64,000 nt of DNA from an uncultured Pelagibacteraceae bacterium (lineage in GTDB: Bacteria > Pseudomonadota > Alphaproteobacteria > Pelagibacterales > Pelagibacteraceae), in contig CACHTQ010000004.1 in the NCBI GenBank assembly GCA_902582845.1, positions 51,141 through 115,140 of the forward strand, written 5' to 3'. The position numbers and the translations under genes are program-made. The notes beneath the pieces are model-generated. The model made no database searches, was not told the DNA's origin, and saw nothing but the letters and a program-made list of their open reading frames with translations. This document shows, piece after piece, positions 53,284 through 56,438 of the stretch; the first letter of the stretch is position 1, and each line of letters starts with the position of its first letter.

Positions 53284-53610
53284 ATGACTTACATTGTAAA
53301 TGACAAATGTATCAAATGTAAATTAATGGACTGTGTTGAGGTCTGCCCTGTAGATTGTTTCTATGAAGGTAAAAATATGCTTGTAATTAAACCTGATGAG
53401 TGTATAGATTGTGGCGTTTGCGAACCCGAGTGTCCAGTGGATGCAATTAAAGCTGATACTGAGCCGGGAAGTGAGAAGTGGTTAGAAATCAACAAACAAT
53501 ATTCTGAGATCTGGCCTAACATAAACGAAAAAAAAGATCCGCCTGAGGATCATGAAAAATTTAAAGATGAGCAAAATAAGTTTGAAAAGTATTTTAAAGA
53601 AAACCTTTAA
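53284..53610 (+). CDS. fdxA: Ferredoxin FdxA (7Fe type)
   Basis: This 108-residue ferredoxin starts [20 protein letters not shown]. Its N-terminal cysteines (9, 12, 17, 21) and second [12 protein letters not shown] set match the 7Fe [3Fe-4S][4Fe-4S] ferredoxin spacing. It carries electrons in the cytoplasm; the partner is unknown. The last 59 bases overlap the start of carD in another frame. Confidence 0.93.
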
Positions 53611-54400
53611 AAAAAAAACTAAATCTAAAAAGACAAAAAAAATAGTTAAAACAAAAAATATAAAGAAAATTAAAAAATCCTCAAAGATAACCAAAAAAGT
53701 ATCCAAAAAAATAAGCAAAAAAATTCAAACACAAACAGAGAACTTAAGAATACCGAAAAATAATGAACTAAAACCTGAAATTAAAAAAGTAAAAAAACAG
53801 AGTACTGAAAAAAGAGAATATAAAATAAAGGATTATGTTGTTTATCCTAAGCATGGAGTAGGTCAAATTACGGAATTTAAAAAGATAAATATTGGCGGTA
53901 TAGATGTTGAAACCTATATAATTAAATTTGAAAAAGATAAAGCAAATGGAATGGTTCCTGTAAACAAACAATCACATCTGCGTCCACTTTCTACAATAAA
54001 TCAAGTTAATAAAAGTATCTCGATTTTAAAAAGTAAACCAAAAATAAAAAGATCTATGTGGAGTAGAAGAGCTCAAGAATATGAGGCAAAAATATCATCT
54101 GGTAAGATTTATGAGTTAGCTGAAGTTGTAAGAGATTTAAATAAAGGAGATGATATCATGATAGATCAGTCTTATAGTGAAAGGCAGCTTTTTGAAAAAG
54201 CCTACGAGAGAATTATTTCTGAATTTCAAATTGTCTTAAATGTATCTAAGGAAGATACACAAAAAAAGTTAGATAAAGCTTTAAAAAGAAATCTTAATAA
54301 GGAAACTAATGAAGAGAGTAAACTTCCTAAAAAATCTGCTAGTGATGATTTACCTGTGGAAGAGCCTATATCTGATGTTGAGGAACAAATTGAAGATTAA
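53552..54400 (+). CDS. CarD-family transcription regulator with Lys-rich N-terminal extension
   Basis: The CarD/CdnL core runs from about residue 88 ([20 protein letters not shown], the Tudor-like RNA-polymerase-binding domain) through a helical DNA-contacting domain (about 155-245). Before it are about 85 residues that are mostly Lys/Ser/Thr, and after it an acidic tail (about 255-282). No ATG, GTG or TTG start exists between the fdxA stop and the core that would remove the basic segment, so the start lies inside fdxA, at 53552 or 53567. CarD stabilises the open promoter complex. A terminator follows. Confidence 0.88.
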
Positions 54401-54443
54401 AAAAAACGCCTCTCACACAAAAAGTTATGAGAAGCGTTTTTTA
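54401..54443. terminator. Bidirectional intrinsic terminator between carD and the polybasic gene
   Basis: AAAAAACGCCTCTCA pairs with TGAGAAGCGTTTTTT around a loop of about a dozen bases, with A-rich and T-rich flanks that give a U-run on either strand. It ends carD transcription (plus) and the 25-residue gene (minus). It is the only textbook intrinsic terminator I found in the window. Confidence 0.9.
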
Positions 54444-54460
54444 TAAAGAATACTAAGTTA

Positions 54461-54538
54461 TTATCTTCTTCTTCTTTTTTTAGCTTTTTTCTTAGCTTTT
54501 TTCTTAGCCTTCTTTGCTTTTTTTCTTCTCTTAGGCAT
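54461..54538 (-). CDS. 25-residue polybasic protein
   Basis: ATG at 54538 to TAA at 54461 encodes 25 residues, of which 13 are Lys, 6 Arg and 4 Ala. It starts MPKRRKKAKK, continues with Ala at 8, 11, 15 and 19 between lysines, and ends in four Arg. A strong ribosome binding site, AGGGAG (54550-54545), sits 6 bases before the ATG, rare in this AT-rich genome. A candidate promoter and a hairpin lie upstream, and a terminator follows the stop. I know no family for it; a nucleic-acid- or ribosome-binding role is inferred from composition. Confidence 0.7.
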   Translation of the reverse strand: MPKRRKKAKKAKKKAKKKAKKRRRR

Positions 54539-54561
54539 CTTTAGCTCCCTTTTTTAGTTAA

Positions 54562-54580
54562 ACGAATCAAAATGATTCGT
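54562..54580. promoter_or_regulatory. Perfect palindrome in the leader of the polybasic gene
   Basis: ACGAATCA at 54562-54569 and TGATTCGT at 54573-54580 are perfect 8-base arms around three A's (plus strand). It lies between the candidate promoter and the ribosome binding site of the 25-residue gene. It could be an operator or an RNA hairpin that controls translation. Confidence 0.5.
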
Positions 54581-54590
54581 AATTACCTTA

Positions 54591-54619
54591 TTTTTATTTT
54601 TTTATATACGTTATGTCAA
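54591..54619 (-). promoter_or_regulatory. Candidate promoter of the polybasic gene
   Basis: On the minus strand a consensus TTGACA (54619-54614) is followed after 17 bases by TAAAAA (54596-54591), a weak -10. Transcription would start near 54584, just upstream of the palindrome and about 46 bases before the ATG. Confidence 0.4.
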
Positions 54620-54737: not shown

Positions 54738-56438
54738 TTAATAAAGTTTTTCTAAATCATCTTTATATTTATTTAAAATTTTTTTTCTTTTTAGTTTTAA
54801 TGTTGGAGTTAACATTCCATTATCAATTGAAAATTCTTCTTGGATTAATTTAAATTTTTTAACTTTTTCTACTAAAGATAAAGTTTTATTTAAATTTTCT
54901 AAGAAAATTTCAATTTCTTTTCTATTTTCAGTATCTTCAGTTACGATTAATGCAACTAAATAAGTTTTCTTATCTCCATAAACAAAACTTTGTTTAATTT
55001 TTTCATTTAAACACAATAAATTTTCAATTTTAGATGGTGAAATGTTATCTCCACCAAGACTGACTATTATCTCTTTCTTTCTATCGGTAATTTTTAAATT
55101 TCCATCTTGTGTGATTTCTCCAATATCACCAGTATGCAACCAATCATTCTTTATGACATCAGCTGTCTCTTTTTTCATGTTCCAATAACCGAGCATAACA
55201 TTTTCACCTTTAACTAAAATTTCACCATCTTCAGCTATTTTTACCTGATTTGTTTTAAAAGGAGGCCCGACTGTATCGATTTTGATTTTTCCTGGAATAT
55301 TACAACTTACCACGGGTGAGGCCTCAGTAAGACCATAGCCTTGAAGGGTGGGCAATCCTATAGCATTTAAAAATTCTCCAATTTTTTTATCCAAAGCACC
55401 ACCTCCAGATACAAAAGCCTTTAGTTTTCCTCCAAACTGATTTTTTATTTTTTTTCTTACTAATTTTTCACAAAAAAAATTAATTAATTTTTCTCTCAAT
55501 TTTAAGTTCTCATTATTCAGTTTTTTTGTTCCAAGTGAGATAGTGGATGATATCAATTTTTTCTTAAAACCTTTTTGTTTTAAAAAATTCATTGAAATTT
55601 TACTGTATAAATTTTGATAGAATCTCGGAACAGCTGTCATAATTGTTGGTTTTGCAATAGACATATTTGATAATAACTTCTCTAAACTTTCAGCATAATA
55701 AATTTTTGCACCAAGTGAAATTTGAACAAATTGAACTGCGTGCTCATATGAATGAGATAATGGTAACCATGTTAAAAAAGTAGGTTCACTATCTTGAACT
55801 AATTGATTTAATATTTCTTGGGCTCCCTCACAATTTGATAAAATTCCTCCATGACTAAGCATTACCCCTTTAGGATTACCAGTCGTTCCAGATGTATAAA
55901 TTATACAAGCAAGATCTTTCCTTTCAAGATTTTGATTAAAACTTATATGAGTATCTGATTTCTTTTTTTCTAAATAGGCATCGAATATATTTTCTATGTT
56001 TTCAACTCTTTCATTTATATTTTCAATAGATAAAACTTTAATCTCTTCTGAAATAAATTTTTCAATTTTTTTTAATTGGATTTCATTAGAGACAATACAA
56101 ATTTTTGGCTTACAATCATTAATGATGTATTCATAATCTTTCTCTGAATAAGTTGTAAATAGTGGAACCGTTACTCCGCCTGCATTCATAATCGATATAT
56201 CAGAGATAAGCCACTCTGGTCGGTTTTCAGATAATAGTATACATCGGTCTCCATCAGCTAAATTTGTTCTTAAGTATTCAGACAAAATTTGAATTTTTAA
56301 CGCAACTTGTTCCCAAGTAAAAAAATTTTTTTCATTTTCTTTTAACCATTTTAAAAATGGCTTATCGGCAACTGAGTTTATTTCTTTATACTTATAAAAA
56401 AAAAGTTCTACTAAACTGTTTATTCTACTTAATCGCAT
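54738..56438 (-). CDS. Long-chain acyl-CoA ligase (AMP-binding)
   Basis: This 566-residue adenylating enzyme has the AMP-binding motif CIIYTSGTTGNPKGVMLSHGG, then FLTWLPLSHSYEHAVQ, LQGYGLTEASPVVSCN, and the hinge region WLHTGDIGEITQDGNLKITDRKKEIIVSLGGDN. These place it in the FAA1/COG1022-like long-chain fatty acyl-CoA synthetases, which activate fatty acids for lipid synthesis or oxidation. It is monocistronic, with tRNA-Leu just upstream. Confidence 0.92.
   Translation of the reverse strand: MRLSRINSLVELFFYKYKEINSVADKPFLKWLKENEKNFFTWEQVALKIQILSEYLRTNLADGDRCILLSENRPEWLISDISIMNAGGVTVPLFTTYSEKDYEYIINDCKPKICIVSNEIQLKKIEKFISEEIKVLSIENINERVENIENIFDAYLEKKKSDTHISFNQNLERKDLACIIYTSGTTGNPKGVMLSHGGILSNCEGAQEILNQLVQDSEPTFLTWLPLSHSYEHAVQFVQISLGAKIYYAESLEKLLSNMSIAKPTIMTAVPRFYQNLYSKISMNFLKQKGFKKKLISSTISLGTKKLNNENLKLREKLINFFCEKLVRKKIKNQFGGKLKAFVSGGGALDKKIGEFLNAIGLPTLQGYGLTEASPVVSCNIPGKIKIDTVGPPFKTNQVKIAEDGEILVKGENVMLGYWNMKKETADVIKNDWLHTGDIGEITQDGNLKITDRKKEIIVSLGGDNISPSKIENLLCLNEKIKQSFVYGDKKTYLVALIVTEDTENRKEIEIFLENLNKTLSLVEKVKKFKLIQEEFSIDNGMLTPTLKLKRKKILNKYKDDLEKLY

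Follow-up and report, generated by a model that had tools for sequence, protein, structure and literature searches.

The window, the whole 64,000-nucleotide stretch of DNA analyzed here, carries on its minus strand a 25-codon gene whose predicted product is MPKRRKKAKKAKKKAKKKAKKRRRR. The gene sits opposite the end of a carD-like gene, between this convergent neighbor and an acyl-CoA ligase gene (Table 1). The peptide contains 13 Lys, 6 Arg, and 4 Ala residues plus one Met and one Pro (52% Lys, 24% Arg, 16% Ala, and 4% Pro), giving a net charge of +19 over 25 residues. Among the 227 ATG frames of 20 to 60 codons in the window, it was the only one with at least 65% Lys plus Arg, and no such frame was found in 60 first-order Markov random windows. 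The organism's own genome (76.5% complete) yielded one match to the peptide gene.

Table 1. Features of the peptide gene locus and its two neighbors in the window
Feature	Position	Strand	Remarks
carD-like gene	53552..54400	plus	Start codon provisional; convergent; long Lys/Arg-rich N-terminal tail; named from reading of the sequence and by the initial annotation
Intrinsic terminator	54401..54442	minus	Conserved in sequence; pair-keeping wobble changes on the minus strand
3' UTR element TTAGTATTCTTT	54445..54456	minus	Conserved; could pair with the coding region
25-codon gene, product MPKRRKKAKKAKKKAKKKAKKRRRR	54461..54538	minus	Stop codon TAA; conserved in SAR11
Ribosome binding site AGGGAG	54545..54550	minus	Inside conserved AGGGAGCTAAAG ahead of the ATG
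Palindrome CGAATCATTTTGATTCG	54563..54579	minus	Holds two inverted GANTC sites; stem-loop predicted at the mRNA 5' end
CGAATCA	54573..54579	minus	Invariant; complement TGATTCG fits YGAKTCG; candidate GcrA/CcrM site
-10 candidate AAAAAT	54590..54595	minus	Weak; in a conserved A-rich stretch; putative
-35 box TTGACA	54614..54619	minus	
Acyl-CoA ligase (AMP-forming) gene	54738..56438	minus	Named from reading of the sequence

The initial annotation of this DNA had described the frame, its composition, AGGGAG, the palindrome, TTGACA, and the terminator, and each was found where it had been placed. AGGGAG was called rare in this genome, but the motif is not depleted in the window, with 13 matches against 12.7 expected. 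The further argument that signals so complete are hard to explain by chance held for the terminator (1 found, 0.1 expected) but not for the promoter alone (4 promoter-like sites, 2.4 expected). Evidence for the gene that goes beyond chance comes from comparison with its relatives.

The neighboring CarD frames of SAR11 had 78 to 132 residues before the PxHGVG motif, counted from the preceding stop codon, with 30 to 41% Lys/Arg in the eight loci shown (53552 to 53870 in the window). In other Alphaproteobacteria, 25 to 58 residues preceded this motif, with 12 to 18% Lys/Arg in three of the four frames shown; the fourth, L104, had 75 residues and 31%. The tail of L160 shows KKKVA repeats, and that of L152 includes an AT-hook-like KRGRPK. 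The SAR11 locus brings two H1-like features together, the basic CarD tail and the peptide. The CarD protein of Myxococcus also has a basic tail.

To collect relatives, carD protein relatives were located in genome contigs, and the best 80 of 567 loci were taken, comprising 57 from SAR11 (L031 to L087) and 23 from other Alphaproteobacteria (L088 to L110). Loci L001 to L030 had been fetched by the peptide itself and come partly from the same genomes again; they were used for the leader and excluded as evidence of presence. The peptide frame was found in 56 of the 57 SAR11 loci among these best 80 of 567, the exception being L083, which stops at a contig edge. Across 86 leader-plus-frame sequences, 77 were distinct. 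Ten distinct DNA sequences encoding 25-residue forms gave a pN of 0.008 and a pS of 0.157 (pN/pS, 0.051), and the other length classes, for which same-length sequences were compared without alignment, gave pN/pS values of 0.23 to 0.54. In 39 aligned units, picked from 85 for diversity, all 78 gap runs in coding columns were multiples of three. The -35 box, the leader, the ribosome binding site, the 3' UTR, and the terminator were conserved as well.

These comparisons bore out the prediction of the initial annotation that other SAR11 genomes would share the start, the ribosome binding site, and the terminator next to carD and would differ by silent codon changes. Frameshifts or loss of the ATG or ribosome binding site, which had been named as evidence against the gene, were not seen in the relatives, where only small departures occurred: TGGAG in place of GGGAG in G322 (L143) and a GTG start in L153 (genus g3). 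A chance frame was ruled out by the presence in 56 of 57 SAR11 loci (among the best 80 of 567), the low pN/pS, the in-frame gaps, and the unique Lys-plus-Arg content. We consider it almost certain that the gene is real and, to judge from its sequence record, translated.

For a wider survey, a strict pattern was defined as the palindrome together with AGGGAG. It was found in 143/201 genomes of the genus, including 24 of the 29 that are at least 90% complete, and in 198/297 genomes of the order; a reversed control of the pattern gave none among the matches listed. A tblastn search with the peptide detected the gene in 50/201 genomes, which is an undercount because low-complexity scoring drops variants. 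The strict pattern was absent from all 53 genomes of genera g2, g3, g4, and g7 and family f2, and a divergent gene was present there where carD was fetched. Of 28 genomes without the strict pattern that were searched for carD, 9 had no carD match. Eight of these nine belong to g1, g5, and g6, suggesting gaps in those assemblies. Among the 19 with carD, the peptide gene was found in 18, and the remaining one, G343, ends at a contig edge; in G004, only the C-terminal part is present before the contig ends. None of the SAR11 genera sampled through carD was without the gene.

At the same locus, the peptide was 36 to 38 residues long in g2, 31 in g3, 34 to 58 in g4, 21 in g7, 23 in the g6 loci, and 76 to 91 in family f2. 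An example of the g4 form is KPAAKKRKPAAKKKAPAKK, and part of an f2 form reads MEELKVIFAKARKKAKKKAAPKKKRKAAK; the longest versions reach 91 residues of KAAPKKK repeats. The shortest form seen has 19 residues (L132), so that repeat number varies the length from 19 to 91 residues, always in frame. In the fetched carD flanks of the 23 non-SAR11 alphaproteobacterial loci (among the best 80 of 567), no lysine/alanine-rich frame of 18 to 200 residues was found, and the leader-start pattern had no exact match in viral contigs. A class-wide search with the 85-residue f2 form gave 0/190 genomes and was uninformative, since the SAR11 genomes in the sample, G000 and G201, were also silent.

This genome contains a single copy of the palindrome and also a single copy of a reversed control pattern; the presence of the palindrome alone is unremarkable, and it is its conservation that is remarkable. 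TTGACA followed by CGAATC(N4-6)GATT(C/T)G was found in all 85 loci with enough leader (L054 is cut by a contig end), with 4, 5, or 6 nt between the CGAATC and GATTYG arms. The -35 box reads TTGACT in the leaders of g2, most of g3, and one of g4. As positioned from the -35 box, the palindrome probably lies at about the transcription start and hence in the mRNA leader. Folding of 23 leaders predicted a stem-loop in each, with pairs that differ between genera, and depending on the leader, 0 to 16 of 200 dinucleotide shuffles folded equally well. The g2 and g4 stems are formed by TCAC(A/T)TA..., leaving CGAA unpaired.

Some leaders also offer a partner for the ribosome binding site. A CTCC or CCTC/CCC pairs with it in the folded leaders of g2, g4, and most of f2 and is absent from the folded g1 leaders. 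The CTCC of the g2/g4 leaders (L145 to L147 and L149 to L151) can form this pairing in most folds; AACCTCTAACTAAACCC, present in f2 leaders L155 to L160 with small variants in L157 and L159, can do so too, though not in the L157 fold. These models suggest that translational or autogenous control through this pairing is possible in g2, g4, and f2.

Downstream of the frame, changes in the terminator among relatives preserve minus-strand pairs (U-G/U-A, with some double changes), which identifies the minus strand as the transcribed one. The 3' UTR element is nearly complementary to AAAGAAGGCTAAG in the coding region. The transcript might act mainly as a small RNA, with the frame secondary: sequence conservation extends to the 3' UTR and the 5' arm of the terminator, shuffled versions of the whole transcript fold less well (z, -3.3), and the SAR11-derived rhtB RNA family gives a weak plus-strand match that, at 26.8 bits, stays below the cut-off of 55 (E, 0.09). 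An Rfam scan gave no family above its cut-off, and the rhtB match was the best of three below it, all judged to be chance. Given the in-frame length changes, the silent substitutions, and the longer coding versions, we regard a mainly RNA-based function as highly improbable.

A GANTC or GcrA-type site had not been part of the initial annotation. GANTC is the sequence methylated by CcrM, and such sites connect genes with the cell cycle in relatives of SAR11. CGAATCA was found in 90 of 90 distinct leaders that had not been selected by the palindrome (54 from named carD loci, the rest fetched by peptide or carD; L054, L083, L142, and L144 were unreadable and left out), with GAATC lying 34 to 36 nt after TTGACN. 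Thirty further leaders had been selected via the palindrome's CGAATC; 29 of these have CGAATCA and one has CGAATCG (L117), both of which fit YGAKTCG. The final A is unable to pair in 12 of the 39 aligned leaders, yet it is A in all 12, and g2 to g4 retain CGAATCA though their hairpins use other pairs. The hairpin alone therefore does not explain the motif, and one GANTC appears to be kept for another reason. The second GANTC is missing in L085 and L086, in the leaders of g2, g3, g4, and g7, and in the four g6 leaders. In the window, GANTC is scarce (114 against 190 expected), and YGAKTCG is not enriched (5 against 6.35 expected). Besides this locus, no TTGAC-N28-42-CGAATCA promoter was found in the organism's own genome (76.5% complete), so this arrangement does not mark a shared regulon in that genome.

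The own genome encodes GcrA (profile match, E of 7.9e-38) and a 374-codon frame with a RAMA domain (E, 1.1e-19), a domain typical of CcrM and taken here as its mark. RAMA matched only Caulobacter among the controls, and the GcrA profile also matched a Sulfolobus control. Among the 17 SAR11 relatives tried, GcrA was matched in 16 and RAMA in all; G204 (f2) has no GcrA match, though its leader keeps CGAATCA. In G340 (g4), the RAMA match (G340:C1:621780-621971) is partial with an in-frame stop, possibly a decayed CcrM. These matches contradict PMC2877005, which seems to group Pelagibacter with bacteria lacking CcrM and GcrA. According to PMC9516812, GANTC methylation and a link to replication have been reported for Pelagibacter in general. 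YGAKTCG is quoted in PMC7987155 as the extended motif of GcrA-activated methylated promoters, and the same source describes few likely GcrA targets among conserved orthologs of "Ca. P. ubique," which is given as having no ctrA ortholog in PMC7987155 and PMC2877005. As judged from the predicted -35 box, the GANTC site would lie at about +5; in PMC3667746, methylated GcrA protected -35 to -10 of Caulobacter ctrAP1.

Since a GANTC in extended GcrA form stands at the promoter, we propose that transcription depends on GcrA together with methylation by CcrM, and we give this even odds. The palindrome could instead be merely an mRNA 5' stem-loop acting on stability or translation, or the operator of another regulator, with GANTC incidental. 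The hairpin predicted in every folded leader, in genera with different pairs and against most dinucleotide shuffles, fits a stem-loop, and the varying arm gap is unlike a rigid operator. Such a role would leave unexplained why CGAATCA is invariant where the outer bases are unpaired (g2 and g4) and where its A cannot pair (12/39), and we incline slightly against it.

As to what the peptide does, the initial annotation had suggested an H1-like or ribosome-associated role. The f2 form contains 48% Lys, 25% Ala, and 7% Pro and the g4 form 50% Lys, 24% Ala, and 9% Pro, and a low-complexity make-up rich in Lys and Ala, with or without Pro, which is an H1-like trait, is present in both as well as in the window form. 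The K/A/P repeats favor the H1-like half of the suggestion, and the free module number disfavors the ribosomal half. No match at E of ≤1 was found to Pfam or NCBIfam profiles (5 and 4 sequences scanned, respectively), and none was found in the PDB; such repeats often fall outside profiles. The peptide is therefore called H1-like in make-up and not a member of Hc1/Hc2. With one proline and no KAAP repeat in the window peptide, its link to H1 rests on the longer relatives at the same locus. The best reading is that it represents a very short H1-like lysine/alanine polycation, and an H1-like role in nucleic acid binding is likely.

In other bacteria, CarD acts as a transcription factor with a link to rRNA genes, and a neighbor of this kind, together with the size, the charge, and the strong expression signals, would also suit a ribosome-associated basic peptide that binds rRNA like small bacterial ribosomal proteins. 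These are expected to be fixed in length and sequence, which the SAR11 peptide is not: its length ranges from 19 to 91 residues and its AKK/KAAP modules change freely, whereas a protein built into the ribosome would be held to fixed contacts. In the 23 non-SAR11 loci (among the best 80 of 567), a frame of this kind was not seen beside carD, and we consider a ribosomal role unlikely. Similarly improbable is binding to another polyanion, such as polyphosphate or RNA granules. Pseudomonas AlgP, an H1-like KPAA-repeat protein, is described as sitting on polyphosphate granules (PMC9239181), and KPAA/KAAP repeats occur in the g4 and f2 forms; the window form is without proline repeats.

We therefore return to the H1-like reading, in which the locus would form a transcription unit with a single gene, encoding a very short histone-H1-like polycation of SAR11. 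This polycation would bind nucleic acid regardless of sequence, with the chromosome as the most likely target, and may neutralize or condense DNA, as the lysine/alanine tails of bacterial H1-like proteins are thought to do. The one invariant GANTC, in extended GcrA form just past the predicted transcription start, would tie peptide output to chromosome replication through GcrA and CcrM, and the predicted 5' stem-loop, strong ribosome binding site, and conserved terminator suggest high, stable expression. To the whole explanation, an H1-like polycation under GcrA/CcrM-linked transcription, we assign a probability of roughly 0.6. A bolder version, put forward tentatively, is that of a protamine-sized H1-like chromatin peptide with a CcrM/GcrA-gated promoter, its synthesis coupled to replication and the arrangement kept across the order as the peptide ranges from ∼90 to ∼20 residues. 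If true, this would make the gene a bacterial counterpart of replication-dependent histone genes.

Bacteria of the SAR11 group, which live in the ocean, are among the most numerous of all and have small genomes, and their DNA packing and cell cycle timing are little known. The gene is a concrete candidate for a chromatin peptide and for a GcrA/CcrM target in the clade of "Ca. P. ubique," with its missing ctrA ortholog. It falls below the usual annotation length, and its Lys/Arg-rich product would presumably be shredded by trypsin in proteomics. A literature search, mainly of freely accessible papers, found none naming the gene, and the word carD is absent from the main text of PMC2704228, a structured RNA search in "Ca. 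P. ubique." The size series from 91 to 19 residues offers a natural experiment on how far an H1-like tail can be reduced and still suffice.

Bacterial H1-like proteins are already known from Hc2 (PMC2848022) and AlgP (PMC9239181); new here are the size of the peptide, the GcrA-type site, and the conservation of the gene throughout SAR11 along with a cis-regulatory block that is itself strongly conserved. Chlamydia Hc2, reported to bind DNA and to span 165 to 237 residues according to repeat number (PMC2848022), and a similar Bordetella protein are likewise lysine rich, with module number setting the length as in the SAR11 forms. The latter differ in their length of 19 to 91 residues, with 25 for the window form, and in having no Pfam match, a free-living host, and DNA binding that is putative. 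Pseudomonas AlgP and the C-terminal domain of PhaF have KPAA-type repeats with an H1-tail composition (PMC9239181), as in the g4 and f2 forms; AlgP has in addition a 124-residue N-terminal domain and a role at polyphosphate granules, whereas the SAR11 forms are essentially the tail alone. The GcrA/CcrM promoters of Caulobacter, such as mipZ and ctrAP1, share GANTC sites, two of them juxtaposed in mipZ (PMC3667746), and the extended YGAKTCG (PMC7987155), and genes of the gcrA and ccrM type are present in SAR11. Compared with those promoters, the SAR11 candidate site lies just downstream of the predicted start and would represent a new kind of target.
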